This document shows positions 14,750 to 63,298 of a stretch of 64,000 nt of DNA, in pieces. Source of the DNA: Gracilaria vermiculophylla (taxonomy: Eukaryota > Rhodophyta > Florideophyceae > Gracilariales > Gracilariaceae). Location: contig JAHNZQ020000004.1 of NCBI GenBank assembly GCA_019155205.2, positions 2,711,447-2,775,446 of the forward strand. Direction: 5' to 3'. Position 1 is the stretch's first letter. Each line of letters opens with the position of its first letter. The translations under genes and the position numbers were made by a program. The notes under the pieces are model-generated. The model saw only the letters and a list, made by a program, of their open reading frames with translations. It did not search any database and was not told where the DNA came from.

Positions 14750-16031
14750 CAGTCTGTTTCAAAATCATATCACGTTGGTGTCAAAGTAAAAAATTGATGA
14801 TTTTCGTACTGTACGGCTAAAGTACAAAATGAGTTTCAAAATAAGTTCAATTCCAAAAACAGTTTCAAAATTGTAATAACTTTATCAACTTGAAGTCTCT
14901 TTGGCGACTCAGTAACTAAATTTTCCACCTTTTTGCTGGATAACGCTAATACAGCGTTTAGGCATTGAATTGATGTAGCCGTTAATTGTCGAAACTGAAT
15001 TATTGTCCTAGCAATTCTTAATACAGTTCTTTAAATCAAAAACTGTGCTAAACTGCCTGCCATGACCATAAACCATTCTTTATAGTAAACCCCATACATT
15101 TTCAATGGGGTTCAAGTCCGGTGAGAGCGCTGGACATTCCATGACATGAATGCTTGCTTCTTGTAGCCAGTCTGACACCAATTTAGATTTGTGCACCACG
15201 GCATTATGTTGTTGAAAAACAAATTTTTCTTCATGTACACGATATCCAAAAAGTAGCATGTAGTTATAAAGAAATTTTTTGTAGCGTGTAGAGTCCATAT
15301 TTCCATCAATAATGGCAATTTCTGTTTTTCCATACTTTGATATACCATCCCATACCATTACAGAACCGCCTCCAGAATGTCTTGTATAACTTTATGAACT
15401 TTCCTTTCTAAGATCATGCCAGTAATACTTAAAACAATCTGGACCATCCAAAGTAAACCTTTTTTCATCAAAAACTATGACTGTGCTCCATTAATCTTTC
15501 CAGTGCGCCATCTTTGCACACCAAGAAATTCTTTCTTGATTATGATGTTCTTCCAGAAAGAAAGTTTTCCTCATTCTTTTATACTTGAACAACTTTTTCT
15601 TTTTAAGTTCCCTCCATATTGTTGATTTAGATACATTGAGGTTTAAGTTTTTTGCAAAATTCTAGCACGAAACTTTTCCTCGACACAATTCCTGTTTAAT
15701 ACCGCGCTTATCTATAAAACTGAGAAGGTTTGGACGCCTTTTAGGTTTTTTTTCTCCATAACTTGCTGGAGTTTTATGAAACCGGAGAATTGTGACTGTA
15801 GGACGCTTCAAATGTCGGCCAATTTTGGCATTTGATTTTCCGTTAGCTTTCAATTGTACAACTTCAAGCTGTTCGGAGCTCGAAAGAGGTGATCCTCGAG
15901 CCATATTGATGGATGTTGATGATTTAGTCTTATGATTATGAAACGAGTTTTACTTATATGCTCTGCAAAAGGCGCACTACAGCACTACTTTGGCGCGTTT
16001 TTTAGGCGTGATATGATATTGAAACGCACTG
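14750..16031 (-). mobile_element. Tc1/mariner element, nearly full length, inactive
   Basis: This is the best Tc1/mariner copy here (about 1.28 kb). Its ends are inverted: CAGTCTGTTTCAAAATCATA on the left and the complement of CAGTGCGTTTCAATATCATA on the right, followed by TA (16032-16033). Transposase on the minus strand starts at 15904 (MARGSPLSSSEQLE) with an N-terminal DNA-binding region, and its C-terminal catalytic part is at 15358-15080, ending in DLNPIENVWG. The second catalytic residue is changed (FQQHNA where FQQDNA is usual), and a frameshift separates the halves, so it cannot encode an active enzyme. The left TA target has decayed to TG. Confidence 0.85.
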
Positions 16032-16053
16032 TACTTAGCAGCGATACAGATAA

Positions 16054-16098
16054 CCCTTTTGTGACGGCGAGCTTATATCTATCTCAATAGACATAAGC
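16054..16098. repeat. piggyBac-like left terminal repeat with palindrome
   Basis: It starts CCCTTTTGTGACGG and then contains GAGCTTATATCTATC, a 3-base loop, and ATAGACATAAGCTC, which can form a hairpin. The right terminus (19788-19836) has the same pair of features in inverted order. Confidence 0.75.
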
Positions 16099-16259
16099 TC
16101 AAAATCTGATTAGATTTCGACCTGTGAACGGTAAAATGGGTGGCGCTCAGTCGCACAGGTGGGCATTATCGTTATGTCTACTGGTATACACATCAGCCCA
16201 CAAATACTAATGGGCAGGAGTAGAATAAATATCTATCTAAACCAACAAGATCGGCGATA

Positions 16260-17900
16260 ATGTTGTGCAAGCAAAACTCAGCTCATCTTTTCCGTTTTGT
16301 TTGCAATAAGGACGAAATATGCGCTGATGAACTCTGGATGTCACAGAACCCAAGCACGAGCTCCCCATCTCAAAACACAGGGGAACCCGCCAGACGTAGT
16401 GGCCAGATTTGTAGTGTACTTCACATTCTGAGAAAAAATCGAAAGATCCGACAAGTCCGAACGCTGATAGTATTCATAATTACCAAGACGATGTTAAATG
16501 CATTGTAAATAACTTAAACTTTATACTGGACGAAGGTCCTGGGAAGGAAGAATTCATCGTTTTCACTTTAGGTGCGGTCGAAAAGCAGGAAGTGTGCGAC
16601 ACTGTTTCATACTGCTCAATATGAAAAACAAATACAGGATCGCACTTACTTAAACCGGATCTCATCCAACGTTCCTACTCTCGCAAACAAGAACTTGGCC
16701 TGTTTCCCTTGGTTCTGATCAGCACGTATTTAGAGTGTGTTCGCATATGGACGAGCAAAAAAAAAGAAACGCGGAAAGAGAACCAAGCCTTTGCGCATGG
16801 ATAAATTGATGGCGTTCTTCGGAGTTCAACTGGCAACTTCTATATATGGCCTAAACCGACTTAAGTATTAGTGGAACGAATCGGATTTGCAGCAAATTTC
16901 TTTTTGTCAAAAAACGATGTCCCGTGATACGTTTTGGAACATTCGTGCCGCATTGCGATTCTATGGTACATATAATTCTGAAAAGGATGTGGTTGACCCT
17001 TTTTGGCCTAGACGGCAACTTCCCGAGCGCTTTCATAGATACTCGGCGACATTGGCTGTGCCGGTTGGTGTACGGTACCTGGATGAAAGCATAATAAGGT
17101 GCAAGGGAAAGACAGCGGCCCGTTCTTATGTAAAATCGAAACCTGTGAGATTCGTTATTCGCTTCTATGCCGTAGTTGGCTGGGTACATGCCTATTTCCA
17201 CAGCTTTTAGGACAACGAAAGTGGTAATAAGTCCGGAATACTACCTGTGGTGCGTTACACCAATATTTTTCGTAACCTTCGAGGAGCTGTGGAGCGGAAA
17301 TTCAATGGCACATATGTCCGGAAATGCACTGCATCGTCATTGTGATGTGCCCAAATCGCCCATCAAACACAACTACTTCCCACTTTCTCTCCTGATCGCC
17401 TCATTATTTTGGTCAATTTTTATACGCGCCATATGCTAGCCCGCCAATTGCACATTCTCAGCGACGGGCAATGTCGTATACTTGGTACAGTTAGAATTTC
17501 AAATGTCGATGGCGTCAACCGACCAGCCTTGAAAAAGGCAATTGAAACTCTCCCAACTGAACTCAACGTGGTGATTGGCGCTTGATTCAGGTGTTAGAGA
17601 AGGCGGATACGCCGAATTCGGGGTTATCAGTAGCGAACAATGCTGGTTATATTGTTTTCAGGGACCACGCCGTGGTTATTTTCTATACAAAACATCTGAC
17701 ATACATGCCAACGCCTCTAATCCACACCCCAGATTATCATGCGATGGCCTGTATCCACGGCTTAGCACCTTCGCTACGATGGAGGGGTAAAAACGTCTTA
17801 CACGCACAACATTACAAGTGCTCGCGGCCATTGTCGCATTTTATCTTTTCATGAACTGTGTTGATCGTTTCAAGCAGCTGTGGTCGACAACGGCTACCGT
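16260..17900 (+). pseudogene. piggyBac-like transposase relic
   Basis: Best conserved from about 16798 to 17200: an MDKLMAFFGVQL segment, then MSRDTFWNIRAALRFYG, then LDESIIRCKGKTAARSYV, which fits the first catalytic Asp block of DDE_Tnp_1_7 enzymes (DESM-x-F-K-G-R type). The next block, near 17415, reads LVNFYTRHML where a DNFYTS motif is usual, so the second catalytic Asp is lost. The third block is near 17855 (CVDRFKQLW, Asp kept), followed by a C-terminal stretch ending about 18090 with NAHDIL. Stops and frameshifts occur throughout. It would have cut and pasted the element at TTAA sites. It is not functional now. Confidence 0.7.
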
Positions 17901-20224: not shown

Positions 20225-20777
20225 TGTAGTACAGTGGCTCTTACGGAAGTACGGTTGTTTGAACTTAAGGTATAATATTCTTAAGGAGGCCCCGTATTTT
20301 ATTAGGTGGGCCACGTGGTGCATAATCTCGCCCGCGTGTGCTACAGTATTATTGAGGCACGGTAGAACTATTATTTATTTTAGATAATTTATGCAGGTAA
20401 TTAATACAGTAGCGAGACCTGCCGAGGCGGGCTCCCGGCTTGATACTTAATATGCCGGTTGAGCTTCACTTCTGGGGAAATAAAGACAAGCACCCTTAAG
20501 TCTTCATCTACTTTTCCGGTTGGAGTCTCTCGTCGATCAACTCAGTTTTCTAAGCCGCCGATCCCCAGGTCGCATCATCGCAGCGCCTGCAGGAGAATTT
20601 TCCGACCAGTGAACCTCCCCCTCCGCTTGGTGTTTGTAAATCCCCTTAAACAGTCTCCCCGGCTCACGACCCCGGATACCAGAGACCACCTTTAGGAATA
20701 CGAGCCTTTGGAGTCACCAAGAACTCCTAGCGGACGTTGTGCTTTACAACCTCGACGGGAGGTCTGACAGTACCACA
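20225..20777 (+). repeat. 5' LTR, family A complete copy
   Basis: 553 bp, TG...CA ends, colinear with 30514-31066, with 33501-34053 and with 58026-58578, and with reverse copies at 49764-50294 and 54294-54848. Confidence 0.95.
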
Positions 20778-20779
20778 AC

Positions 20780-20791
20780 TGGTCTCCCGAC
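20780..20791 (+). promoter_or_regulatory. primer binding site, family A
   Basis: TGGTCTCCCGAC starts 2 bases after the 5' LTR. The leading TGG fits a tRNA 3' CCA end. The sequence is kept in the copy at 34056 and, less well, at 58581. Alternatively its GGTCTCCCG core is complementary to the anticodon-arm region of eukaryotic tRNA-Asp, which would make it a half-tRNA primer. The tRNA cannot be settled here. Confidence 0.6.
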
Positions 20792-21315
20792 TTAGAAGGT
20801 CACAGTTCCTAAAGGATTCGCACAAGTCGCAGCAGAACCGTGTATTTAGTTTGCAACGACCAACTCCCAACAGTGGAATTCTTCCTTAAGGTGATTCGGA
20901 TGTGGAAGAAAATCACCCCCGACCTACTCCTCTTTGGACCTCTCAGAATATCCCACGGAAACCTCCTACAGGATCCTCAAGTGACCGGCTCCGTCGGTTG
21001 GCGCAGCACGCGCAGCGCTCCCCAGGAGATGTCCGCCACACTGGAGGACCCTGAAAGCCTCCTTCGGAATCCTGGCTCCTCTATGGAGCGTTTCAGGAGT
21101 CTCCTTAGGAGAATGCATGATCGGAGACAAGTGGAATCCCCCGCGACACCTCTGGAGAACGCCGATGTGGAGGATGAAGTACCGCACACGGCATCGCAGC
21201 CGCCACCTCATGAGCTGCAGCGACGGGAACACCCTGTTGATAGTTCAAATGGTGAACTGTGCGCCCTGTGTCACAAGAGAGTATAGCGCAAATATCTCAT
21301 CTGTTTTCCAACAGT

Positions 21316-21328
21316 TTATGGGCCCAGC
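21316..21328 (+). promoter_or_regulatory. TRIM primer binding site (half-tRNA iMet)
   Basis: TTATGGGCCCAGC is the complement of GCTGGGCCCATAA, the invariant anticodon stem-loop of eukaryotic initiator tRNA-Met. Drosophila copia uses the same internal region of this tRNA. The copia element at 61451 carries the same site. Confidence 0.8.
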
Positions 21329-21342
21329 TAAACGCTAGGACC

Positions 21343-21359
21343 CTGGGTTCGACTCCCAG
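21343..21359 (+). other. tRNA T-arm / Pol III B-box-like sequence inside the TRIM
   Basis: CTGGG, loop TTCGACT, CCCAG forms a perfect 5-bp stem with a 7-base loop and matches the Pol III B-box (GGTTCGANTCC). No matching acceptor stem or D-arm is found, so it is not a whole tRNA gene. Confidence 0.6.
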
Positions 21360-23579
21360 AAGTGACCTGAGCCTGAGAAATTGTACAGGTGTACAGCAGT
21401 AGTGAAGATTGGCTACTGTAAGCTCGAGGTCTCGTTCTGTAGGGAAGTACAGGGCGAGGGGGCGTGTTGATAGTTCAAATGGTGAACTGTGCACCCTGTG
21501 TTACAAGAGAGTATAGCGCAAATAGCTCATCTGTTTTCCAACACACCCGGAGGCTAACTCCCTCCTGGAGTCCCTGGCCCCGCGCCTTACAGATTGGCTC
21601 TCAAAAGAGCTGGTCCAAAGACTTCCTGCACGTTTTGAAGCCCACTTCGGAGCGTGCCCCCAAACCCTGGTGGAGGAAATCGCAACGGAGAGCGATCACC
21701 GTGCTGTGGATGCTTTGCTGGATTCCGACCCCTTCCTTAAGGTTGTCTAAGATGTTATCCGTGCGGTGGTTCGCTTCCAAAACGCGCAGCTGCTCCCCGC
21801 AGCGGCGGTTCAAAGTTATTCATCCGTACAGGAGAGATTCCCTGTATCAACACCTTAGGTGACCCCGGGCAGAGAAGGAAAGGATACTGCCATCCCCTAC
21901 GCCAGAGGAGGAAATGATACTGCCGTAGGGAAACGGGACCACCTCAGGAATCCTGCTATGCACCGTCTGTACCTGACGCCCCGCGGAGGAGGAGAGAATA
22001 CCGGTCGCGAAGAGGTTCACCTAAGGAGAGAAGTACAGGATACTCCTCGGGTGGATCGCAATAACTGGGGTATCGTCAGCAACCCAGACCACCGTAAGGA
22101 AAGAAGAAGAAGGAAACGGAGGGAGAAAAGAAGAAAGCAAGACACCGACTCGCAGAGAAGATCAGACTCTGAATCCATAAACAGCTCCAGCTCGGAGGAC
22201 AGTATACCTCCCAAGGAAAAAAGCAGAAGGGTCAGGAAGGTCGTCCCGCATAACGACCTCTTTGCCAAAGTGGTGGATTATGACACCTACAGTTTGAATG
22301 ATCGCTCCACACTCTACAACGCGTCGGTCGCTAAACGACCAACGATGATGCAACGCCGTATGGATATTGAAATGAAGAAGCACTCCTTCTCAGGCGAAGA
22401 CCCCATCTCGGTGTTGAATTTTCTTACGCGCTTCCGTTCGGCGTTTAATACCAATGCTGTCCTTGAAGGTGCCGTCGTATGGTGCTTTCAGTTCTACCTC
22501 ACAGTTCAAGCGCACTCGCTGGTGTAGCCGCGTCTCACGGGGGAGAGCTCCATTGTGGATGATCCTGGAACGGAGATTTTGACGACGTACCCGGAGGTAG
22601 TCAATTTTTTCCTTAAAAGGTACGCCACGGACGAGATGATATCTGATGCCGATGCTGAAGTCACTTCCTATAGAAAAAACACCGAAATGACCGAGACCGA
22701 GCTCTCACAGAAGCTGTGGACGAAGGCTCTGCGGTGTGGGAAGGTGTACACCGAACGGCGGTGGAAGTCACTTTTTGTCGAGGGACTCCTTCCCTCGATA
22801 CGCGCGAGGGTGCGTAATCACCTGACAACGCACCTAGAGACCACCTACACGGAGTTAGCACGTTTTGCGGCATCCTATGCGAATACCCACCGTGCCGCTC
22901 GCCGCATTCATGCTCCACTTTCGGACAAACCGGCGGCCCCGAGGACCCGTCGGAAATCAGCCCTGACGTTGGACTCCAGCACCTCGGAGGATGTCGACGA
23001 CCTCACGCTTGTAGGAGAGCAAGAGACCCTCGCCCTCACATACGCCTCCTCTAAGGGAGCACCGTTTAGGACGAGGACACCCCCGTCTCCTACCTCGTAC
23101 GCGTCAGCAAAATCCTACAGTAACCTCCAATTTGCGAACCCTCGAGGCTACCTATCGCTTTGCAGGATTTGCTTGTCACGAGAGCCCGTACATTGTACGA
23201 CTCTCACTCCGGCAACGAGGGCCGCTATCCTGCAGAAAAGAGAGAAAAACTTCCAGGACCTGAAAGACACACCAACGGAGAGCGGAAGTTATCGAACTGC
23301 GTATCGCGACATCCGCTCCCCTGAAGGAAACCACGGTTACCGTGCTCCACCGTGAGTGCCGCCTGTCCCACTGTCACTGGCACCCGCAACGCCGGTACAA
23401 GTGTCCCAGCCGGTTGCACCTCCAGCAAGCACGTTGCATCGCGATGCACAACCGGAGCAGCCGTCCCCGCCTGGAAACCAGCCCCTCTCCAACTAGGAAA
23501 ACCCTCAGAGCCACGCGTAGAGGCTCCGCGTGGCTCTCCAACATCGAGCTTCAGCTCCACGGAGATGGCCATTAGGAAA

Positions 23580-23957
23580 GAGGGAGAGGCCGTCTGCTCT
23601 GTCGACGCAGAATCGGCGGGCCCCCCAATCCCATTGCACTCATTCGACACCTTTGAGGATTCTGTTTGCGCACTCGGCCGTGAGAATTACAAGGTATTCG
23701 CCTGTATAGGATGTTCTCTGCTCGCCTCCACCACGGTGCGCGCTATCCTCGATACCGGAGCTGGCCCCAATCTGGTGCACGCCGACGTGCTCCCGCGGTC
23801 TGCTCTCGGCTCCTTGAGGACTGACAAGCTCCCTACGGTGCACGGTGCGTCTCGTCGAGCATTGCCCATCTTCGGCGCAACCCCCTTATACTTCCAGTTG
23901 GGCTCCTTACAAGTTAAAGTGAGGTTTTTCGTGGCGACCAACTTGGCCGCACAGTGA
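23580..23957 (+). pseudogene. aspartic protease domain, family A complete copy
   Basis: Retropepsin-like domain with the catalytic signature AILDTGAGPNLVHADVL near 23740-23790, the flap-like LPTVHGASRRALP region, and FFVATNLAAQ before a TGA at 23955. In-frame sequence after the stop continues ILGTSFVDRY, the usual C-terminal ILG block. It would cleave the polyproteins. The active-site DTG is intact in this copy. The copies at 46.9-47.2 kb (ITGAL in place of DTGAG) and 35.8 kb (DIEAG in place of DTGAG) have lost it, while the one at 61.2 kb keeps it. Confidence 0.85.
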
Positions 23958-24599
23958 ATATTGGGCACTTCTTTTGTGGATCGGTATGTACGTGCAATCT
24001 ACCCACGCCTGCGGAAGGTGACGTTTCACGACGCCGCCCCTGTATAAATCGCGTCTGCATCTCCAGGACCGGACGCCAACGCGCGTCACGTGGGTAATCT
24101 TCAAAAGGAGATGCAGTCGAATAAGCTCCGCGTGGTAAAGAGCATCGAAATACACGCAAGGAGTCAGGCCGAAGTCTGGGTGCAGACCTCTGCTTCTGGC
24201 CTTTCATTCCTACAGGGAATTTCACACCTGACGACAAAGCCGCACTCCATGATGGCAAACGGTATTATAGAAGTAATCCAGAACGTTTCCTTCAGGGCCG
24301 TGCTCGCTAACCTCAAGGAGTCGCCATTACGGCTCCAGAATGGAATTGTCGTCGGACTGGCACTACCGGCCCATGTAAGACTGGCTCACCATCTTCGCTC
24401 GGAAGACCTTGCCGACCGCGATGCTATCACCACCATGGAGGTTGAAGCCACTTCAACGGCTCCAGAGGAAAAGAGTCCTGCCACCTGGCAGAAGAAGCTC
24501 CAAATTGGCGATGAATTCGAAGGGTATCGCCATAAGATAGTGGAGATGCTATCCGCCTTTGAGGATATGTGGTCTGGTCGCCTGGGTCAGGTAAGCCTG

Positions 24600-25455
24600 G
24601 CCAAGCACAGGATCCAGCTCACACCGGATGCAAGAACCGGTAGATCTACTCCCGAGGAGGGCCGGACCCCATGCGCGCGACTTTGAATGCGATGAGGTCC
24701 ACCAGATGCTGAAGAAGTGCGTTATAGAGCCTTCTAATTTCGAATGTGCCTTCCCGGTGGTGTTTTTCAAATAGAAAGATGGCTCCCTTAGGTTCTGTAT
24801 TGACTACAGGCGTCTTAACGAGGTGACGGTACGCCACTCGTACCCGATACCCCGTATGGATGAATGTATCGACTCCTCAGGCAATGAGTCCGTTTTCTCC
24901 ACGCTGGATGCCAATCGTGGCTACTGGCAGATTAAGATGGAGGACTCCGATAAGGATAAGACAACGTTCACCTCGCACTGTGGGATCTTCAGATTCCTAA
25001 GGATGCCATTTGGATTGAAAAATGCACCCGCTACGTTCCAACAAGCGGTGGACATTATCCTGTCAAAGATGAAGTGGCAGTACGCCTTGGTGTATATCGA
25101 TGAAGTCATCATATACTCCCGTAGCGTGGAGGAGCACTTCATTCATGTGAAGCACGTGCTACAACTCCTAAAGGATGCTGGCCTCACCTTGAAGCTGGAG
25201 AAATATTTCTTTTTCAAGTTGTCGGTGGACTACCTGGGGCACATTTTGCTCCCGGGCCGCCTACAGGTTTCCAGAAAAACTCAGGATGCCAGCAAGGAAG
25301 CTCACCCTCCCACAAACCAGATGGAGCTCCGCTCCTTTCTGGGATTGTGTAATGTCTTCTGGAGGTTTGTACCGAATTTCTCCCGTCTAGCGGCGCCGTT
25401 AAATCGCCTCTTGGAAAAAGGACAAGCAGACGCAATTGGCTATCTTGACAGATAA
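24600..25455 (+). pseudogene. reverse transcriptase domain, family A complete copy
   Basis: Contains the Ty3/gypsy RT blocks in order: LRFCIDYRRLNEVTVR, YPIPRMDE, FSTLDANRGYWQI (first catalytic Asp), FRFLRMPFGLKNAPATFQ, YIDEVIIYSRS, YLGHILL, ELRSFLGLCNVFWRFVPNFS. The core motif is YIDE rather than Y-x-DD, so the third catalytic Asp is a Glu. A TAG at about 24771 lies just before KDGSLRF and frameshifts border the domain. It would copy element RNA to DNA; this copy cannot. Confidence 0.9.
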
Positions 25456-25920
25456 GGAGTTTGAAGCCTTCGACACACTGAAGAGGAGACTAATAGAGCC
25501 ACCAATCTTGGTACTTCCGAAGCGGCACGGGCGAATGGTGCTGGATACTGACGCCTGTATATACCAGGTCGGATGTGCCCTCCTACAGGAACAAGCTGAA
25601 GGTAGACCTCAACCCATCGGATATTGGAGTCACAGCCTCACCCCTACGGAACGGAAATATTATTTCACCTCGGAGCGCGAATGTCTCGCCATCGTGTCGG
25701 CAGTGTTGCTATGACGCCCATACCTGAAAGGCGCGCTTTTCACCTTAGGGACGGACCACGCACCACTGAAGTCGATACCGTGCTTGACAGATGCCTCCGG
25801 TCGCCTGGAAAGGTGGCGGTGACGCCTCCTGAACTTCGAGTTTGACATCGGCCACCACGCTGGCATTAAACAACAGGCAGCGGACGCGCTCTCGCGAATC
25901 TCCGCCGATGGGGAAGATAA
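25436..25920 (+). pseudogene. RNase H domain, family A complete copy
   Basis: Blocks LDTDACIYQVGCALLQE, YWSHSLTPTERKYYFTSERECLAI and, after a TGA at about 25712 with frame changes, LGTDHAPLKSI and DIGHHAGIKQQAADALSR. These are the usual RNase H and connection sequences of Ty3/gypsy pol. Confidence 0.85.
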
Positions 25921-25927
25921 AACACCT

Positions 25928-27445
25928 TTGCAGGACAACATCCCGTGTCTGGTTATCCAGAACACCGACGGGAAAGAAAGATGCGATGGAGAATGTTTGG
26001 AATTCTGTGAACCTGGGGGTAAATACAGTGGACTCCCTGAGGTGATGGCTCATGTTGGGGAGGAAAAAGAAGTCCTCCCCATTACTGTAGCGGAGTTCCT
26101 GAAGGAGCAGAGTACGGAGACATACCGCAAGGAGTGCATCGCCTCTGTGGGGAGTTTGACATCGTCATTCGACGTCCACAGAGACGGCGTGCTTGTACGA
26201 CGCGCCCCCCTAAATAGAGCTCTTCAAAAGGTGGTGTCGACGAAGCTACGGGCGAGAGTGTTGTACCTCTCGCACTATCCTCGCCTCGCCGGGCACCCCG
26301 GTGGATCACGGATGTATTCTACCATGCGGAGGGAGTTCTATTGGCCAAACATAGCTAATGACGCCTTCCAAACTGTGGCGGATTGCTATTCCTGCGCCGC
26401 CGCTAGGGGGAGTATACGGAAACACCGGACGCCGCTCACTCTGTTCCCACCTTCGGGACCGTTGAAATTTGCGGCCATGAACATCTTGCGTCCTCTCCTC
26501 AAGACGGAGCGACGGCACCAATTTATCCTCGGGATCACGGATCGTTTTTCCAAGATCACGCGTGCCGTCCCCCTCCGGAGCACTACTGCAGCAGTGATTG
26601 CCGACGCCTTTCTGGAGCATTGGGTTCACCCCTACAGGGTACCGTTGTACCTTTTTACGGACAATGGACCCCAGCTCGCGGCGAAACTCTTCAGCTCCGT
26701 CTCCGGAATGCTGTAAATGAAGCAGTTGTTCACAACTGCCTATCACCCCCAGACAAACGGACAGGCGGAAAGATTCATCAAAACCATCGCCTCGAGGCTG
26801 AAGCACTACGTTGCGGACCACCAGAAGAATTGGGACGCATATGTGGGACCCCTCACGTATGCATACACCCTACAGGTGCACCATTCTACAGGGACCACTG
26901 CTTTCCATCTGGTGCTCTCGCGCATCACGCCAAGTGCCGTCATCGCGGCACGCGCCACGGCGCACCCGGCGGATGGGCCACAGACGCCAACAGCGGCGCA
27001 AACCAAACGCTGCATTCTAAGGCGATATGAGAACGCACTCTCCCTCGCGAAGGAGAGACTCAACGCCTCGCAGTGGAGATACAAACAGGACTTCGACCGT
27101 AAGTTTATGGACGGTCCTCACCTGCAGGAAGGCGACGAGGTGTTCTTCGATAAACCCGAGGAAAACTCCGATGAACCGCCAGACGTCACGCGCAAGGTAG
27201 CGCCGACCACCTCAGGGCCCTTCAAAGTCCTTGCCACCTATAGGGATACTGTCGCCATTGAGGTGAACGGGCTCAGAGATGACGTCTCCCGTGATAGGGT
27301 GACGAAAGTCCCAACGCCCAACGCTCAGCCTTTCAGGAATTCCCGCCACCCCACCTCAGGGACAACGCGCGGAGATTCCTCATTCGACCATTTCAGGCGC
27401 GACGACACCACGGGATACTGGGAACAACATCACGGCTCTCGGTGA
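25928..27445 (+). pseudogene. integrase, family A complete copy
   Basis: The zinc finger is HYPRLAGH ... CYSC (about 26272-26397). The catalytic core has MNILRPL where MDI is expected, so the first catalytic Asp is Asn. LFTDNGPQL (second Asp) and TTAYHPQTNGQAERF (Glu) are kept. A TAA interrupts at about 26714. The C-terminal region (about 27090-27330) contains GDEVFFDKPEE and GPFKVLATYRD, the usual C-terminal DNA-binding segment. It would insert the cDNA copy and make the 5-bp duplication. Confidence 0.9.
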
Positions 27446-27679
27446 ACCAATCCTGGAGGCTCCCAATGCCATCCTGATCCCTGAAAGTGACATCCTCTCG
27501 CGGGGGACCATATCGTCTCCCATCGACAAACCCCTGCAGGAGTACTATACCGCGTCCGCTGGTATGGGTACAACTCGAAGGACGACACTGAAGAACCTCC
27601 GGAACATATCCCGGAGAACGTCCTTAGGCGATACCACGCCAATTTGGTGCAGAAAAGCCTCTCCATGTAGGCGCTTCCG

Positions 27680-27699
27680 TTTAGGAAAGGGGGAGGGGG
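27680..27699 (+). promoter_or_regulatory. internal polypurine tract
   Basis: TTTAGGAAAGGGGGAGGGGG lies just after the end of pol and before the antisense ORF module. Its first 13 bases are identical to the 3' polypurine tract at 30498-30510. The minus-strand copy keeps a degenerate version (CGTTGAAGGAAGG read on the minus strand, near 43190-43210). Confidence 0.7.
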
Positions 27700-28124
27700 C
27701 CCCCGACCGGAGTGTTTTTCGCCTCCGCAGTCTATCCCCTACCTGGAGTTCTCTTTACCACCTCCAGTCTGCCGTTCCTCGCTTTTCGCATGCTCCCGTA
27801 TCGGTACTTCGTGTCGTTGAGCTCGCATGCATGGCCTATTCATGTTTGAAGTACCGGTCGTGGAGCTTCTGCTCCATCCAAAGGATCTTTTATTGGTCAG
27901 GGTCCTCTCACCTACAGGCCACCGAATCGCGTTTAATACTCCGCTTCGAAGCGCTATTTTGCTGTGACCGCTTGGCTATCGAAAAACTCCGAATGGCTTT
28001 CCTTGAGGGCCACCATCGAGGCTCGGTCTGTCCGGGCCTTATGGAGCTCTAAGACCCAAGCACGCGCCTCGCGCAGAGCCTCCACAGGAGAAGCCGGAGC
28101 AGGACGGTCTGTCACCAGGCACGC

Positions 28125-30002
28125 CTACACCAACCCCTGGAAGGCAGACCCAAGAGCCCCGGAGGAGACTCCTTCCGACAGTGGACCCGATGCGGCTACC
28201 TCCGTTGACGGCGCAACAACCGTCACGGAGGGAGCAGCAGACGGCGGACCAGCTGAAGCAGGAGCTCCCCGACAGGATTCCGCGGGTTCTACAGTGGAGG
28301 ACGGCAATGCCAAGGGCGGAGTCGGTGACGCCGGAGGTGACGGCGGCGCGGGACCTGGAACGCTCCGCAGGCGAAGCTGAATACTCAGCGCAAAGACGCT
28401 CCACAATCGGGGTTGCTCTACTGGAGCCGAAGGTACCGGGACGGGAGTAATGTCATCCTCTTCTAGTGGAGACACGGCGGTGACCACTGCGTGAGCACTC
28501 GGCACTGCGGCGGGCCGTGGAGTTATCACCTCAGGAGGTGCGCCCATATCCTGGGACGAAGCCGGTAACCGACGTGTCGCATCCAACGCCAGACTCTCCT
28601 TCAAGCGGTCGTAGTCTGGTACTCGAAGCCGTGGCACCTGAGGAACCCGAGATGGCGCCAGACGGGAAAAGGCGGGGTATGCTTGCCCGTCATCTTCTCC
28701 ATTCGGACTCCTCTTAATGGGGTGAAACTTGTCCTGGCCGTATTCGTACCAGAGAAAATCCGGTTTGTCACTCCACGCCACCTGGAGGTTGTAATCCAAC
28801 AGTGTCTCCGCTTCGGACTCACTCCATGCGGTGCCCATAACCAGGTTTTGGATACCAAAGGAGCGCAGCACCCGTATGATGGACGCCGACAAGGGGAGCA
28901 AAAGCCCGGCGGTCGGCTGATATGACAAGTTCCAGTAGAGGCGGCCGTCGTGTCATCGGGTATAGGAAGTTACGCCTTCGTTCGCCGTTTGGAGATACGC
29001 CATCGGGGTGCTGACCGCGAACTCTGTCGAGGCGGTCAACATGACGAAACGCCCTAGGGAGTCATGTGGATCCAGAACCTCAGAGGTATGATACGCGAAG
29101 GTTATGGGCGTCGCCACGCAGAGATGCGGGGAAACCCAGTGGTTCCTCCAGGAATTGTTCACCTTAAGGTAGTACTTCGGACGTTGCTCGGAAGGCATAT
29201 CATGGAATTCCGTGTTATGCCATCCATAGAAGTACCCGAAAGCGGTGCGTACGCGAGTTTCGACCGCAAGGTGCGTCGCCCATCGATTCCGATTGAGCCA
29301 GTACAGGCGATCGTATGGGAGATCAAAGGGAAACACCGCAAGGGCGGAGCGGCCATCGGCAATGCTTCTGGTTCGCTTCGCTCTCTGGTGCGAGCTCTTT
29401 TTGTGGAGTGAGACCTGGAGTCTCGCCTTGATCTCTCATTCTTCAGCGCACCTCAGGTAGGGAGTGTCGCAGTGTCCTACCGTGGTTGGAGCATTGCCAC
29501 CATGTACAGGAGTATGAAGCCAATGGGCGCGGTATACATCGACGCAGTTCCGCTTCTGGTCGTTCCACGCAATCTCCAGGATGGCGCGGAATCGCATCGC
29601 CTGCAGGTACGGACCGAAATGGTGAATGTAATCCTCCGCGGGACAGGGGAGACTCACGCGCCTATCGTGGAACGGGACAAACACCCGCGTGACACAATGA
29701 TGGAAGTGTTCTTTTGGAAGGAACGGTGCTCCGGTCGAGGTGTGATACACCTCAGGATTGGAAGGGGATGTCGGCGCCGGAGTCGGAGAGGACACTCCGA
29801 AGGCGTATGAAGCACGGTGGATGGCGACCGAACGCGTGGTTGCACCTGAGGAGAGAGACCTGACACCACTCGGGGATCGATTCGAAACTATATGCACCAC
29901 CTTGGAGGGACCCGTATCGAGCCGCCACCGTGGAATCCGAGGCGCAGCCAGGCGACAGGCATCGGGCGCGTTATGGAGCACCATCACGGGGCCCGCGCTC
30001 AT
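28125..30002 (-). pseudogene. antisense ORF of family A (aORF), unknown protein
   Basis: A minus-strand frame runs from ATG 30002 to TAG 28125 (about 625 codons), antisense to the element's own genes, between integrase and the 3' LTR. Only two in-frame stops break it (about 29433 and 28950). The N-terminal third includes PRIPRW and EHFHHCVTRVFVPFHDRR. The middle includes WHNTEFHDMPSEQRPKYYLK, HWVSPHL and LDPHDSLGRF. Next come YQPTAGLLLP and FLWYEYGQDKFHPI. The tail is Pro/Ser/Ala-rich. The plus-strand relic at 39346-41330 encodes the same protein blocks despite heavy DNA divergence. I recognise no domain, signal peptide or clear membrane segment. Antisense genes are known in some plant LTR elements, but no match is claimed. 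Confidence 0.75.
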
Positions 30003-30497
30003 ATCCAACGGAGATCGACGGAGGTGCGGACGAGCGACTTATGAGTCTGGAACCTTCACGGAGATCGGATGAGCGGAGACGAAGAAGCGGGTGTTGCCAA
30101 AAGGAGTGACCTTGAAGGAGGCGGAGTGGCTAGTGCCTCCAAGCGGTCGGTATCCTCGCGGATCTGACCCACGCTCCGTCTACGGAAGTGCGCGTTTGCA
30201 ACATGCGCGGTACGCCGGAAGACGCGGACACTCTTGTTGCCGACTGGCGCAGCAGCACCGACAGGTGACACCAAGAAGGAGCGGATGCAGCCGGGTGAAG
30301 GAGGAGCAGAGCCCACAAACGCCCCAAGGAGTGAAACGCGAGCCCGCGGCAACACGCCGCGCAGGAGTATGGAGAAGAGAAGGAACGCCACAAGGAGAGA
30401 ACGGGCAAACCGCCGGAGGCCGTACGGGCCGCAACGCCGATCGGAGCCACCCCAGGGATCAAGAAAGCGAAAGATGCACTTTGAGGACGTGAAGCAA
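30003..30497. other. region between aORF start and 3' polypurine tract
   Basis: GC-rich sequence open on both strands in several frames. A minus-strand frame from 30514 has a hydrophobic stretch and a plus-strand frame is Arg-rich. Neither is in frame with the aORF (a TAA lies about 30042-30044 upstream of its ATG) and neither is clearly matched in the copy at 38.9-39.3 kb. It may hold the aORF promoter. Confidence 0.4.
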
Positions 30498-30510
30498 TTT
30501 AGGAAAGGGG
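30498..30510 (+). promoter_or_regulatory. 3' polypurine tract, family A
   Basis: TTTAGGAAAGGGG three bases before the 3' LTR, the expected primer for plus-strand DNA synthesis. Confidence 0.8.
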
Positions 30511-30513
30511 TCA

Positions 30514-31066
30514 TGTAGTACAGTGGCTCCTACGGAAGTAGGTTGGTTTGGCCTTAAGGTATAATATTCTTAAGGAGGGCTCGTATTTTATTAGCTGGGC
30601 CACGTGGTGCGTAGTCTCGCCCGTGTGCGCAACAGTATCCTTGAGGCACGGTAGAATTATTATTTATTTTAGATAATTTATGCAGGTAATTAGTACAGTA
30701 GCGAGACCAGCCGAGGCGGGCTCCCGGCTTGATACTTAATCTGCCGGTTGAGCTCCACCTCTGGGGAAGTAAAGACGAACACCCTTGAGTCTTCATCTAC
30801 TTTTCCGGTTGGAGTCTCTCGTCGATCAACTCAGTTTTCTAAGCCGCCGATCCCCAGGTCGCATCATAGCAGCGCCTGTAGGAGCATTGTCCGCCCAATG
30901 AACCTCCCCCTCCGCTTGGTGTTGGCGGATCCCCTTAAAGAATTCCCCCGGCTCGCGACAGCGGATACTGAAGACCATCTTTAGGAATACGCGCCTTTGG
31001 AGTCAACAAAATCTCCTAACGGACATTGTGCCTTAGTACCTCGAAGGGAGGGCTGATAGTACCACA
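30514..31066 (+). repeat. 3' LTR, family A complete copy
   Basis: 553 bp, colinear with 20225-20777, ending ACCACA and followed by AAAAC, the target duplication. Confidence 0.95.
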
Positions 31067-33500: not shown

Positions 33501-34053
33501 AGTAGTACCGTGGATCCTAAGGTTATAGTGTGGAGTGGCTTTATGGGGGGATATTCCTAAGAAGGGCTCGTATTTTATTAACTGAGCCACGTGGTGCATA
33601 AGTCGGCCCGCGTGCGCTACAGTATCCTTGAGGGTCTGTAAAATTTATATTTATTCTAGTGAGTTTGCGCGGGTAATTACAACAGTAATGAGACCTGTCG
33701 AGGCGAGCACCTGGTTGGATACTTAATCTACTAGTCGAGCTCCTCCGGAGCGGAAGTAAATAAAGCACCCTTGATTCTACGTCTATTTTTCCGGTTGGAG
33801 ACACTCGTCGATCATCCTAAGGTTTCTAAGCCGCTGATCCCTAGGTCGCCCCGTGGCAGCGCCTGTAGGAGCATTGTCCGCCCAGTGAATCTCCCCCTCC
33901 GTTTGGTGTTTGCGGGTCCCCTTTCAGGATTCACCCGGCTCGCGAACGCGAATACCGGAGACCACCATAAGAATATCGCGCCTTCGGAGTCACTAAAAAC
34001 TCTTCATGGACGTTGTGTGCTACTACCTCTAAAGTAGAACTGACGGTACCAGA
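33501..34053 (+). repeat. 5' LTR of truncated family A copy
   Basis: 553 bp, colinear with the LTRs at 20225 and 30514; the first bases have decayed (AGTAG for TGTAG). Confidence 0.85.
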
Positions 34054-38554: not shown

Positions 38555-38830
38555 CCGAATTTATTCTAGGAGGCAACCCAGAAATCGGCGGGTTTGAAAC
38601 CTGAAGGCGTTTGAAATAAGTTTCCAACCGGAAAAGGTCAAAGAAGACTCAAAGGTGCGTTGTTTACCTCCCCTGGAGATAGGACTCATTCGGCAGATTA
38701 AATATAGTGCCCGGAGCTCGCCTAGATAGATCGAACTGCTAAATTAAATACCTACTTTAAGTAACGAAGAGAGATCTCAATTCTACAATTTCTCAAAGAA
38801 AATATCGTCTTATAATTAATTGTACTACAT
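38555..38830 (-). repeat. partial 3' LTR of the minus-strand family A copy
   Basis: Reverse-oriented family A LTR. The blocks TCCAACCGGAAAAGG, AAGACTCAAAGGTGCG and CGGCAGATTAAATA match the complement of the LTR middle. Homology is lost on both sides, so only about half of the LTR survives. Confidence 0.65.
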
Positions 38831-39345: not shown

Positions 39346-41330
39346 ATGACCTACCGTCGTTCTCTTTTTGATTTGGACTCGCTCCCTGCTTTGGTGCTCA
39401 TTACCTCCCCTGAATATCCTTGTTCGTCTTCTCCACGTATTCCTCGATGGCTTCGCGACATGGCTTCCTCACCTGACAGCTATATAACGGCGGGTCTCAC
39501 CCCTTGTGGTGTTCCGTACAGTTCCATTGGGGACACCATACACTCAATCTCCGATCTTCCCACTACGTAAACCTTCATTATGCCTTCTCCGTCTAAGGTT
39601 TCTACTTCTCAGTCCAATCCTGAGGTGAATCACACCTCCTTCGGTGCGCTTCTCCGCCCAGGGGAGCACTTCCACCAACGTGCTACACGGGTATTTGTGC
39701 GCTTCCATGCACGACGCATCAGTATTCCTTTTTCCATGGCATATTAAATTCACCATTTTGGATCGCACCATAAGGCAAAGCCGTTCCGCGACGTACAGGA
39801 GGTTGCTTGGAATGACAAGAAGCAAAACCCGGTGAATGCCTTCCGTGATCACAGGCTGCACACTATGGTGCACGGTGACCATGCTCCGACCACAGTGGGA
39901 CACTACGACACTCCTTACATTAAGTCTGCCGAATAGCGCGAGATTCATTCTCGAATCCGACTATTTTTGCGCAGGGAAAGCGCTCACCAGCAAGCGGGGC
40001 GTCTTGAAAGAATCGCCGATGGACGATTTGTCCTTGCGATACTGTCATTCGATCCCCCTTATGATCTCTTCTATTCCCTGAATTGCAAAAGATTGGTGAT
40101 CCTCCTTGGGGATGAGACCGAGTGCGGAACGCCTTCCTATACTTCTGTTACTGCCACAACACGGAATTTCATGACATGTCTTCCGCGCAAGGTCCGAAGT
40201 ATTACCTCAAGATGAACTACTACTGGGGGGACCATTGGGTCTCCCTGCACCTCTCTTTGGAGATTTTCATCACGATGGCGGACCATATTTCATAGGTTCT
40301 CGATCCATATGACTCCTTAGGACGGTTCATCATACAAATCTCCTCAGCGCAATTGGCGGTAGGCACCCTTGCGGCTTATCTCCAGGCAGGAGACAAGTGC
40401 GTCACTTCCTATACGCGGAGTCGCAATCGTCAAACCTACTGGGATTCCGTGTATCAGCCATCCACCGGACGTTTGCTTCCTTAGTCGGTGCCATTTGTCA
40501 GGTTCCTTCGCTCATTAGGGATTCCGAATCTGGTTGAAGGCAACTTATAGAGCAACTCTGAAAGGGAGGGGCTTCTAGATTACAACTTTCCAGTGGGGTG
40601 CAACGATACGCCGGGCTGGCTTTGGTATGATTATGGAAAAGACAAGTTCCATGCCATTGTGACGGGCCCCAATGGATATGATGTCCAGCGAGCCGACCTT
40701 GCTTTCCCCCGCTGTGGAGCTTTACTGGTTCCTCAGGTGCCGTGGCTACGTGTCCTGGACTATGATCCTATGGTGGGAGCCTAGCGATCCGCGTGCCACA
40801 TCCGTCAACGGCTGCGTCGCAGGACATGGTATCACCCCCTGAGGTGGTAAGGTGGCCTCCAGCATGGATTCCAGACTCTCTTCCAGCGGTGGCCAGTGCG
40901 AATCCAATGGAAGGGAACGAGATTATTTCCGTCCAAACTATTTCGGCCCCGGTGGTGCAATACCGTTTGAAGAACATCCCGGCTCCGATCATTTATCCAC
41001 GCCTGAGTAGCATCTGGGCTCTAGTGCCACCGTACCCTCCAGTGCGGGCTGCTCTGCCCTGGGATCGGGGATTCTCTGTGGCAATGACTGCAGTATGCGC
41101 GCGGGAATCCACCGTTCCGGCTGGTCCGCCGTCCGTGACTCCTTCAGTAGTGGCTGCTATTCCACTGGCAGGGATTGCCACCTCCAGTGCATCCTCTGGC
41201 GGTTCGTTCCTTGGGGCTCCTAGTACTGCCTTTCAGAAGTTGATGGAGGCCTGTCTGGTGACGGGTTGCCATGCGACCAGTTGTCCTAGAGGCGCTGCAC
41301 GAGACTGGTGACGGGGTCCTTGAGCCTCAT
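39346..41330 (+). pseudogene. aORF relic in the minus-strand family A copy
   Basis: Encodes the same unknown protein as 30002-28125, on the strand antisense to this element's gag-pol. Matching blocks in order: SSPRIPRW; HTSFGALL...GEHFHQRATRVFVRFHARRI; TTVGHYDTPYIKSAE; RIADGRFVLAILSFDPPYDLFY; FHDMSSAQGPKYYLKMN; HWVSLHL; LDPYDSLGRF; TSYTRSRN; YQPSTGRLLP; LWYDYGKDKFHAI and PQVPWLRVLDYD. About three frameshifts and several stops break it. The C-terminal tail is again rich in Pro, Ser and Ala. The protein-level match across diverged copies is the main evidence that the antisense frame was a real gene. Confidence 0.75.
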
Positions 41331-41379
41331 GAGACATTGCCGGAATAAGCCTGAACGGCTGCCATCAAAGTGTTAGGAT

Positions 41380-43139: not shown

Positions 43140-44760
43140 CCAGATGAGGGAGAAATAGTGCAAAACGAGGAATAGCTCCATCCAGGGGCCCGACGTCCTT
43201 CCTTCAACGGAAACTCCTATGTAGAACTGCTTTGCCGCTTTTGATTGGCGTGGTATCTCCTGAGGACGTTTTCTGGGATGTGTGCCAGGGATTCTTCTGT
43301 TTCATCTTTTGAGGTGTACGCGTACCATCATACGCGGTACAGTAGTCCTGCAGAGGGCGACCGGAGGAGATCAATATGACCTACGGCAAAAGACACCTTG
43401 AGGGGTCAAAATGGTGTCGGAAGCTTCCATCATCGGTTTAACAAGAAAAGGCACGTGGTATCCAGTATCCATCGGTTTCGTCGCTATTGAGGGGTTCGGA
43501 ATAGAAATCTCCGCGTGTGACCCCTGAAGTGGAGAGTCAGGCGTTCGTGAAAGACTGGGCGTCGTGATTTTCGTGCCCCAATCTCGGGAGACGACATCTG
43601 GGAGCCCGTCTACCTAAACGGCGACAGTGTCCATGTAGTTTTCCAGGATTTTGTAAGGCTTTGAGACGTTCGGCGCTAATTTGAGAGTGACTTCCAGCGG
43701 TCATCGGACGTGTTCCCAGGTTAATCGAGAAAACCCGGATCATCATCCTATTGATGAGAGCCTTACGTCACCTTTAGGTCGAAATACTGTTTATTTCTAC
43801 TACGCAAGGCATTGAGTTTATTCTTTGCGAAAGAGATTGCGTTCTCATAACGCCTTAAAATGGATTTCTTTGCTATAGCCTTATTGGTGCTCGTGGCCTA
43901 TTCGCTGGGTGCGCGGTGGAGTGTACCGCTATAATGGAATTATACGGGTCACGCGCGAGCACCAAATTGAAAGGAGTTGTCACTGTGAAGCGGTGCACCC
44001 GCAGGTTACATGCAGAGTTGAGCGAGCCCACTTATGCATCCCAATCCTTCCGGTGATCTACGACGTATTGTTTCAGCCTGGAACCGATTGCGTTTTAAAG
44101 GTATTCCCACTACGTTGGTCTGCGTGGGGTATGCAGTGATAAATGACTGCTTAATACCCAGCATTCTTGATATTGACCTGAATAGATACGTCGCAAACTG
44201 GGTTTTATTGTCCGTAAGGAGATACAACGGGATTCCATATGGTCAAACCCAATTCTTCGGAAAAGATTCGAGAACAACTGCTGCAGCGGTGCTCCTGAGG
44301 AGTATGGCACGCGTGATCTTCAACAAACGATCGGAGATTACGAGGATAAATCGATATCGTCTCTTCGATATGGAGAGAGGACGCAAGTATCCATGGCAGC
44401 GAAGGGCAAAGGTCCTGAAGGGGAGAAAAGAGTGAGTGGCGTCCGGTGTTTGCGGACGGTTTCCCGAATGGCTGTGCACGAGTGATAACCGGCCACCATT
44501 TGGAAGGCGTCATTAGCCATGTGCGGTCAATAAAAATTCCTCCTCAGGATTAATTCATGCACAATCCACCGAGGTGTTTCGCAAGGCGAAAATAAAGTGA
44601 AAAATACTGTATTCTCGCCCAGTGGCTCGTTGGGATCACCATTTGGAGAGCACCTTACAGGGGAGCTCGGCGTACAAGTACGCCATCTCGGTTGACATCG
44701 AATGAAAATGATAGACTCTTTGTGGTGGGGAGGCACTCTTTGCAGTACGCATCTGTACAC
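43140..44760 (-). pseudogene. integrase remnant, minus-strand family A copy
   Basis: Pieces match the integrase at 25928-27445: the N-terminal region (44760-44527), MANDAFQMVAGYHSC (zinc-finger part, about 44520), FAAMDTCV with the first catalytic Asp kept (the complete copy has Asn), a DNK segment (FTDNGPQ equivalent) near 44220, and the C-terminal region near 43746-43537. Many frameshifts. Confidence 0.75.
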
Positions 44761-46200
44761 TGCTCCCTCGAGAACTCCACTATAGTAATGAGGAGAACAT
44801 TTTTCTCCTCCTTGACAAGTTCCATCACCTCAGGGAGCCCACTAAATCTACCTCAAGAATCACAGCATTCCGAGCATTCTCCATCAGATTCTTCTTTTAT
44901 GTCGGCTTTCTGGATGACAGCACACGGAATTTTGTCCTCGAAAGGTGTTATGTCTTCTCGCTGGAGATTCGCGACAGCGCCTTCGTTACCTGGTGTTACA
45001 TGCCAGGACGGTGAAAAATGTCAAACTCGAACTCCAGGAGGCATGATATAGACCTTTCCAGGCGACCGGAAGCATCCTTCAAGGATAGTATCCACTTTAG
45101 CCGGGAGTTGTACGTCCTGAAGGGTAAATGAGCGCTCCCCAGGTATGCGTCTAAAAGTAAACCGCACATACGATGGCGACACGTTCGCGCTTCGAGATGG
45201 AATAATGTAGTCCCGTCGGTGAAAAAAGCGACTTCAGTATCCTATATGTTGAGGTCCACTCTCAAGTTGTTTTTGAAAGGAGGGCAAATCCAATCTGATA
45301 TTTAAAAGCGTCTGTGGCTGGCTCCATCCGGCGGCTTCAGTTCGGGAAATCCTCGATCGGTGTCTCTACTAATCTTCTTTTCAAGGTGTTGAAGGCTTTG
45401 AATTCTTCGTCTGTGAAGGAGACCAATTGAATTTGTTGGCTTTGCTTTGAGAAGAGATTTCATGGGGCCGCAATACGGGAGAGATTCGTGACAAATCTAA
45501 AAATCAATACATAGCCCCAGGAAGGAGCGGAGCCCCGTCTGGTGAGTCGGTGAGCAAGCTTTCTTGATGGTGCCCTGAGGCTTCGCGTAAATCAGAAAAT
45601 GGCCTTGGAGCACAATATGTCTCAGATTGTCCACCGATAATAAGAAAACGAAACACGTATTCAGTTTCAAGGTGGGTCCAGCATCTTTAAGAAGTTGTAG
45701 CACGTGCTCGACACGCATAAAGTGCTCCTTTATTTTGGAAGAGTATATAATGATAACGTGCACATACATAAGAGCGTTTTGTCACTTCATCTTTGACAGA
45801 ATTATGTCCTTCGCTCGATGTAACGTAGCGGGTGCATTCTTCAGTCCATATGGAATCCTTAGAAATCTGAAAATGTCACAGTGGAAAGTGAAAGTTGTCT
45901 AATCCTTATCGGCGTCATCCATCTCAGTTTTCCAGTAGCCACTGTTGTCATCTAGCGTGGAAAAAACGGCTGCATTACTCAAGAAGTCAATTAATTTATC
46001 CATGCGGGGTATTGGGTACGAATCGCATACGGTCACCCTTTTGAGTCGTTTACAGTCAATGTAGAAAATCAAGGAGCCATCCTTTTTCTTGCAAAACACC
46101 GCCGCGGAAGCTGTTTTGAAATTTGAGGGCTGGGTGACGTCCTTATGTAACACTTGCTGGAGCTCATCGGGTTCGAATGTACGCGCATAAGACCCGGCTC
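44760..46200 (-). pseudogene. RT/RNase H remnant, minus-strand family A copy
   Basis: Matches 24600-25920: FYIDCKRLKRVTV, YPIPRMDKLIDF, VFSTLDDNSGYW and YVHVIIIYSS (the Y-x-DD box is lost), VEHVLQLLKDAGPTLKL and ELRSFLGLC-like sequence. Stops and frameshifts throughout. Confidence 0.8.
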
Positions 46201-46359
46201 TCTTGGGGGCTCGTTATCGCTATTTCGCCTCAATTGTGAGCAAAATCCGGTGTATGGCTATGCTAATCTGTCCAAGGCCACCGATCTACCTGTTCTCAAA
46301 GGTGGATAGCATCTCTACCATCCTATGACGATACGTTTTGAACTCTTCGCCTATTTAGA

Positions 46360-47330
46360 GCTTCTCCTGGAAATTGGGATGCTTTTCTTTCTCTAGAGCT
46401 GTCGATACCGCTTCTTCTTTCATGATGGCCATTGCATCGCGCTCAGTAACTTGTTATATGCGTAGGAGAAAAGCTATTCCTGCAGGGGAGGGTGGTGCCA
46501 ATTCGAGGACAGATCTTCTTTGGAGCCGTAAAGGCGACTTCTTTAGCTTAGCAAGAACGACTCTGAAGGGAAGTTTTGGCACTATTCCCATAACGGCATT
46601 CGCTATCATGGGGTGCTGCTCAGTCGTCCGATGTGTACTCTTCTATAAAAGTGATAGGACGAATGCAGAGGTCTGCACCCAAACTTCGGCCTGACCTTTT
46701 GCTGGTATTTCGATACTCTTTACCATGCGGAGCGTATTCGGGTACGTCCTTTTAAGAGCATTACCCACTTGACGCGCGTTGAGACCTCGTCCAGAAGATG
46801 AGAGAACGATAACTACGAAAGAAGCGTCATGAGACGTCACCGTCTGCAGGCCTGGGTATATTGCACGTACATACCGATCCCGCAAGGAAGTGCCAAATAT
46901 GCACTGTGTTTTCACGCCGGTTGCCACGAGGAAATACATCTTCATCTACAAGGAGCCGTATCGAAGAAGCAGTAGTAATGCTCTACTGATTTTCAATGCT
47001 CAATCTAATGCATCTTGCACCGTAGGGAGCTTGCCAGCCCTCAAGTATCCAAGTGGAGACCACGGGAGCACGTCAGCGTGCACAAGTTTCGGGAGAGCAC
47101 CGGTGATGGGGATAGCACGCGCAATGGTGGAGGTGAGTGTGGAACATCCGACAGAAGCAAAAACCTTCCACTTCTTCTGGCAGAGCGTACAGAGAGAGTC
47201 CTCAAGGGTTTCGAATGCATCCCAATGAATGGAGGGGTCCGCCGCATCTGCGTAGTCCGTACAGAGATCTTCTCCTCTTTTTTTAGAGGCGATCTCGGTT
47301 TTGCCAAGGCTTGACGGAAAGGAGCCACGC
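46360..47330 (-). pseudogene. protease and linker remnant, minus-strand family A copy
   Basis: A frame near 47120-47080 reads AIPITGALPKLVHADVL, aligned with AILDTGAGPNLVHADVL of the complete copy, so the catalytic Asp is gone. Then IFGTSLRDRYVRAIYPGL (ILGTSFVDRY equivalent) and GQAEVWVQTSAF. Confidence 0.75.
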
Positions 47331-47649
47331 GGAGCCTCTACGCGTAGCGCTGCGGGTTTTCCTGGTTGGAGAGAATCTGAATCCTAGTGGGGCACGGCTG
47401 CTGCGGGTGCGCATCGGGATGCGCCGTATCACCCTGGGTTGCATCCAGTTTGGATTCGTGCCCGTGCCCTGGCGCCTCACGTGCAAGTGCGACAGGCTGA
47501 ACGCCAACTGGGACGCGGATATCGTAGTAACCTTGAAAGGATCAGACATCGTTACACATGGCTCTAGAACTTCTACTCTCCGTCGGTGTGTCCTTTACGT
47601 TCTCGAAATTATTCTTCGGTCTCCATAGAACGGCAGCCCTCAATGCCGT

Positions 47650-63150: not shown

Positions 63151-63154
63151 TTGA

Positions 63155-63298
63155 TTGTTGTTTGTTGTTTGTTGTTTGTTGTTTGTTGTTTGTTGTTTGT
63201 TGTTTGTTGTTTGTTGTTTGTTGTTTGTTGTTTGTTGTTTGTTGTTTGTTGTTTGTTGTTTGTTGTTTGTTGTTTGTTGTTTGTTGTTTGTTGTTTGT
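63155..63298 (+). repeat. heptanucleotide microsatellite (TTTGTTG)n
   Basis: About 20 nearly perfect copies of TTTGTTG run straight into the 100-N gap, which probably exists because the array could not be assembled. The true length is unknown. Confidence 0.95.

Follow-up and report, generated by a model that had tools for sequence, protein, structure and literature searches.

Genes and features at the locus

The stretch of DNA analysed in this study (the window, 64,000 nucleotides) contains at 20225-31066 a complete Ty3/gypsy element, element A, with two 553-bp LTRs and the 5-bp TSD AAAAC on each side. This element has an antisense gene (aORF) in the interval from the pol end to the 3' LTR. 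A second, inverted element in the window, element B, carries an aORF at the same place. The features of the two elements are listed below.

20225-20777, plus strand: 5' LTR of element A, 553 bp, next to the TSD, 494 of 553 positions the same as in the 3' LTR
21859-23352, plus strand: gag region, open in two pieces in the window copy, sense-frame dN/dS 0.47 and 0.38 (21 copies)
23352-23954, plus strand: protease region, Asp_protease_2 E 0.12, below the cut-off
24823-25452, plus strand: reverse transcriptase (RT) piece, RVT_1 E 2.8e-26, dN/dS 0.38
25928-27442, plus strand: integrase (zinc-binding and core), two open pieces, Integrase_H2C2 E 3.9e-12, rve E 0.005
27456-27655, plus strand: tblastn match to a chromodomain-bearing pol end, two reading frames in the window copy
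27912-30002, minus strand: aORF, 696 codons and stop, antisense to gag-pol, between the pol end and the 3' LTR
30514-31066, plus strand: 3' LTR of element A, 553 bp
30840-30909, no strand assigned: block of highest conservation in the interval from the aORF to the element end, inside the LTR
38584-38786, minus strand: LTR-like segment, 3' end of element B
39613-41333, plus strand: aORF of element B, broken and diverged, antisense to the gag-pol of B
43462-49313, minus strand: gag-pol of element B, 71% nucleotide identity to element A
49905-50207, minus strand: LTR-like segment, 5' end of element B

The LTRs of element A differ at 59 positions (89.3% identical) and a purine-rich tract precedes the 3' LTR. 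RT and the zinc-binding domain of integrase scored above the Pfam cut-off in the window copy; the other gag-pol regions were weak or unmatched. The Pfam search gave no hit for the gag region of this copy, which is capsid-like by eye only, and the protease of copy L028 (gag-asp_proteas, E 1e-4) was likewise below the cut-off. The integrase frame of L028, a relative of element A, ends in a Chromo domain (E 7.3e-6, above the Pfam cut-off), and RT and RNase H precede integrase in L028 and L020. The family of element A is thus Ty3/gypsy with a chromodomain at the C-terminus of pol. The chromodomain-bearing pol end (27350-27670) is in two frames in the window copy and in a single frame in L028, and a stop at 27443 occurs in one of the two frames (19 sequences); the two-frame arrangement of the window copy may represent decay, variation or a frame shift.

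Comparison of the sequence between the aORF and the element end revealed values of 0.037-0.061 in 20-nt windows for the block at 30840-30909 versus an LTR mean of 0.099, and this block is a candidate regulatory segment that could serve either strand. The leader of element A contains a stretch of about 309 bp (21235-21543) with 79-bp direct repeats at its ends (21235-21313 and 21465-21543; 96%). The same stretch recurs, 93-94% identical, inside pol of L015 (about 4544-4850) and L021 (about 5103-5412), and it is absent, with an overlap of about 6 bp, from the leaders of L014 (about 9347-9352) and a second L015 piece. The stretch resembles a miniature element bounded by terminal repeats.

The window also contains, at 33551-34051, 54321-54805 and 58069-61343, additional LTR-like segments together with another gag-pol piece, the third of this element group and a more diverged one. 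Two host-like genes lie on the minus strand of the window: one at 5063-10987 for a 1974-aa armadillo and ankyrin repeat protein, and one at 1346-2611 whose product contains a lytic polysaccharide mono-oxygenase (LPMO_10) domain. The heptamer GTTTGTT is repeated in tandem about 25 times at 63126-63298, and tRNA and Rfam searches of the window gave no match. The LHC family had 10 matches in the assembly (44.8 Mb, 27 contigs) and the phycobilisome linker family 11; the two together point to a red alga as the probable host. A Zn_clus search, run with no positive control, gave no match. Contig C20, which may be plastid DNA, has an 881-aa frame at 15579-17279 with three phycobilisome-linker matches. 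A preliminary description made from the window had suggested that the antisense frame belongs to a lineage other than that of the known plant examples, and the host genes and the chromodomain of the element's relative agree with this.

Extent of the antisense gene and selection on its frame

The preliminary description reported, at 28125-30002 on the minus strand, a single frame of about 625 codons with two internal stops, antisense to gag-pol in the interval between integrase and the 3' LTR. Our analysis confirmed the frame, its strand and its place; the end of the frame had to be moved. The window copy has three premature stops, at 29438-29436, 28955-28953 and 28127-28125. In the per-codon tally, the window copy alone of the 20 sequences that have a codon at 28127-28125 carries a stop at that site, whereas all 20 carry one at 27914-27912, and the aORF is therefore 696 codons long. 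The ATG at 30002 is the probable start, judged from the sequences compared: it is also ATG in four of six diverged subfamily copies, five of which have the terminal TAG. A second conserved methionine codon lies at 29795, where 17 of 20 family sequences, the window copy not among them, have ATG. The segment 30002-29796 is weakly constrained (dN/dS 0.61 ± 0.14), so that the exact start is uncertain and methionine 29795 is a possible start. At least two genome copies have a 708-codon stop-to-stop frame whose matched part is stop-free.

The layout of the aORF comprises a conserved N-terminal region of about 430 aa (about 29795-28500), a Pro-rich linker (about 28500-28200) and a C-terminal segment (about 28199-27915). 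An imperfect inverted repeat (27792-27866; 19-nt arms, 37-nt loop, 79% complementary) lies just past the antisense stop codon.

A genome search gave at least 146 matches, with 144 of 665 candidates scored. The window copy and 20 genome places (L009-L028), the best-scoring of the 146 matches listed, formed the set of 21 copies used for the analysis; the 20 places lean towards the window's own family, N-masked stretches were skipped and L029 entered none of the substitution counts. Across the aORF region L009-L028 are 83-88% identical to the window copy, with gaps or insertions in some.

A six-frame map of the whole element in 300-bp windows, from which blast pieces below 83% identity or overlapping filled positions were left out, revealed that the lowest dN/dS follows the sense frames of gag-pol and then the antisense frame at 28625-29824. 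Values for the gag-pol sense frames were 0.29-0.45 in the better windows and 0.58-0.80 in several others. At 28625-29824 low dN/dS was found only in the antisense frame (0.24-0.33) and in its stop-rich mirror (0.31-0.40); throughout the map each low-dN/dS frame is paired with the opposite-strand frame that shares its wobble position. The antisense frame gave 0.57-0.62 at 28025-28624. The leader window 20825-21124 gave 0.45 and 0.47, but at a coverage of about four sequences and with 4-5 stops per 100 codons.

Pooled dN/dS with block jackknife errors (21 copies) was 0.242 ± 0.022 for 29795-29100, 0.343 ± 0.054 for 29099-28500, 0.639 ± 0.052 for the weakly constrained Pro-rich part, 0.430 ± 0.090 for the C-terminal part and 0.347 ± 0.050 for the whole of 29795-27915; a value near 1, which would have spoken against the preliminary description, was thus not observed (0.35). 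Pooled values for the sense genes were 0.377 ± 0.049 (RT), 0.375 ± 0.037 (integrase) and 0.457 ± 0.079 (integrase end), the last two corresponding to the two integrase pieces, with 0.472 and 0.382 for gag. Substitutions concentrate at the antisense third codon position across the conserved region.

Variants were further divided into those private to one copy and those common to at least two copies, skipping columns with fewer than 10 sequences or without exactly two bases. The N/S per site in the aORF was 0.99 for private and 0.37 for shared variants, and the frame-shifted control gave 0.90 and 1.02, respectively. The corresponding private and shared values for the sense genes were 0.83 and 0.21 (integrase), 0.69 and 0.33 (RT) and 0.70 and 0.56 (integrase end); the shared variants show tighter constraint on the integrase core (0.21) than on the aORF (0.37). 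The simplest reading is that the aORF was selected while the lineage replicated and that selection ended at insertion, in agreement with the past selection on this strand proposed earlier. A one-ratio codon model, which mixes the replication and post-insertion phases, gave maximum-likelihood (ML) omega values of 0.54 for the aORF, 0.40 for 29795-28500, and 0.46 for RT and integrase together. The sense complement, its stops masked, gave 1.20. Sequences lacking more than 40% of the data were excluded (16 of 21 kept for RT and integrase, 21 of 21 elsewhere). Overall, purifying selection acts on the aORF protein across the pooled sampled lineages, with a strength close to that on RT.

The diverged second copy noted in the preliminary description is real. 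It was recovered by blastn at 39613-40850 and 41213-41333 on the plus strand (67% over 1241 bp and 68% over 123 bp) inside the inverted element B, and the peptide blocks said to be common to both copies (KYYLK, HWVS-HL, LDP-DSLGRF, YQP-(T/S)(A/G)-LLP, DKFH-I, PQVP-LRV-DYD) are present. Six subfamily copies, L030 (window copy B) to L035, have 62-81% nucleotide identity; in all six it is the antisense frame that has the lowest pN/pS (L031, 0.20/0.56; copy B, 0.30/0.61), and here too change is concentrated at the antisense third codon position. Comparison of A with B gave a pN/pS of 0.296/0.595 for the aORF, 0.191/0.494 for RT, 0.213/0.463 for integrase, 0.254/0.451 for the integrase end, and 0.217/0.303 and 0.235/0.449 for gag. 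The aORF protein therefore changes more than RT and integrase, and its pN/pS ratio lies between those of integrase and gag.

Base composition, or coding by the sense strand, might by itself leave an antisense frame open. The aORF region is GC-rich (0.596), and any frame opposite a selected frame will appear somewhat constrained, as does the wobble-sharing sense mirror here (0.42), the other four of the five remaining frames being at about 1-1.3. However, the three sense frames over the aORF contain about 10, 20 and 10 stops per copy, the mirror being the frame with about 20; the sense complement has an ML omega of 1.20 versus 0.54 for the antisense frame; and changes cluster at the antisense third codon position in both the conserved region and the diverged copies. 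No plus-strand frame fits the conservation better; a better fit there would have spoken against the preliminary description. Since the substitution pattern is frame-specific, a chance open frame is excluded, and we regard the by-product explanation as extremely improbable. The aORF is almost certainly a selected protein gene.

Relatives of the protein and its proposed role

Consistent with the preliminary description, which matched the frame to no family, searches of Pfam, NCBIfam, PHROGs and PDB by sequence and profile gave no credible match to the aORF protein, and a single-sequence search of 5.8 billion proteins found nothing. The sensitive profile searches proposed earlier, in each of which about 8,000 candidates were scored, revealed two unnamed metagenomic proteins and no named family: P0002 (769 aa, open, 31% identity, E 3.1e-59; on a 3,849-bp contig) and, in the next search, P0006 (300 aa, 56% to P0002, E 2.6e-71). 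These are the only outside relatives found among the candidates scored. P0002 has, in this order, the conserved N-terminal region, a Pro-rich linker, an aligning C-terminal segment and an RG-rich tail, the tail being seen in this one distant protein only. Searches of viral_contigs and genome_contigs gave pattern matches and no aORF relative. In hmmscan, PF04195 gave no match to P0002 or to the frames of L019 and L011, even with E allowed up to 10, nor, with a limit of 1, to any of 13 members of the alignment. The aORF protein appears from these searches to be an undescribed family, apparently unrelated to TRP28 proteins.

The purifying selection described above leaves the origin and the kind of product to be weighed. 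A captured host gene or a nested mobile-element gene that is now only a passenger would account for the opposite orientation and the separate codon frame, and the origin of such plant genes is given as unknown in PMC7264820. A passenger would not be expected to match the RT-like constraint in shared variants, nor to lie in line with pol and/or the 3' LTR in 20 copies and at the same place in element B, and among the best-scoring candidates no relative was recognised outside these elements. A nested transposon with long terminal inverted repeats was rejected, only imperfect pairs of 15-19 nt having been found around the aORF. We consider passenger status unlikely. Somewhat less unlikely, though still improbable, is that selection is real and acts on a structural or envelope-like product and not on a regulator. 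The size of about 700 aa and the position after pol resemble env, and the AlphaFold2 model of P0002, built with four other sequences, is predicted to be mostly helical (mean pLDDT 36.9, low confidence), a weak point at most. Against this stand the antisense orientation, the weak case for a membrane span (best 19-residue hydropathy of 1.49-1.72 on a simple scale) and the absence of similarity to two pieces of the element's gag (hhalign probability 0.1%).

Our preferred reading, which we hold to be likely, is a selected antisense accessory gene serving the element. The RT-like constraint in shared variants and its absence in private variants suggest that the product is used in the element's own cycle, in which the protein would be an accessory factor. 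As the aORF is unreadable from gag-pol RNA, a separate antisense promoter is needed, and we infer one in or beside the 3' LTR that would transcribe the aORF from integrated (or cDNA) copies. The protein would most likely act as a nuclear or nucleic acid-associated regulator of expression, import or integration. A nuclear regulator is favoured because of the analogy with the plant gene23 (nuclear, with its own promoter) and with retroviral antisense genes; on this analogy we propose the nuclear role only tentatively. The layout of the aORF (N-terminal region, Pro-rich linker and C-terminal segment, with the RG tail in P0002) is compatible with such a regulator. The fuller proposal, that of an HBZ-like antisense accessory gene, independently evolved, of an undescribed family and required by the chromodomain Ty3 elements of a red-algal lineage in order to propagate, is plausible, yet we stop short of calling it probable.

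Comparison with known antisense genes

An extra gene antisense to gag-pol in the interval between pol and the 3' LTR, present in most copies of a family, is described for plants as aORF-3R (PMC7264820, PMC11963269). The plant Ty3/gypsy carriers described include maize Grande with gene23, rice RIRE2 and Silene Retand, whose ORF4 has TRP28/PF04195 (PMC7264820, PMC11963269). The aORF of this study shares their position and orientation between pol and the 3' LTR and in this arrangement matches the class aORF-3R, which is already known; the protein and, probably, the host lineage differ. Unlike Retand, the aORF here has no detectable TRP28/PF04195. Retand is described as a non-chromovirus, whereas the relative L028 has a chromodomain, and the host here is probably a red alga, far from flowering plants and fungi. 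Boty (Botrytis cinerea / Sclerotinia sclerotiorum), a fungal element, is described as having an antisense aORF in the corresponding position (PMC7264820) and is a non-plant likeness, compared by description only.

Oomycete Ty3/gypsy elements are described with an extra RNase H and, in one group, a chromodomain (PMC5348765), which at the pol end is a likeness to the family studied here; the word 'antisense' is absent from the main text of that paper. The LHC and phycobilisome-linker genes of the host here point away from oomycetes, and a search run without a positive control gave no elicitin match. The aORF differs from an env gene in being antisense and in having no clear membrane-spanning segment on a simple hydropathy scale. 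In the open-access literature searched, no description of red-algal Ty3 elements with an antisense gene was found.

HBZ of HTLV and similar genes offer a functional analogy for antisense protein genes (PMC7264820, PMC11963269), and the antisense promoter of HTLV is placed in the 3' LTR (PMC7264820). The aORF resembles HBZ as an antisense protein gene; it differs in that its promoter is a proposed one and in that its protein has no known domain. The role of 3'-end antisense Ty3 genes is described as unsolved, function being argued mainly from conservation (PMC7264820, PMC11963269). The family analysed here constitutes a clean test of selection, with private variants neutral, shared variants constrained and controls flat, and a system for testing antisense transcription and function. 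What looks like a different eukaryotic lineage and an apparently unrelated protein suggest that the arrangement recurs. If the HBZ-like proposal is true, flowering plants, fungi, retroviruses and red algae would have gained antisense genes beside the 3' LTR by convergent evolution, and the cause of the convergence would be a site that offers a separately regulated transcription unit.
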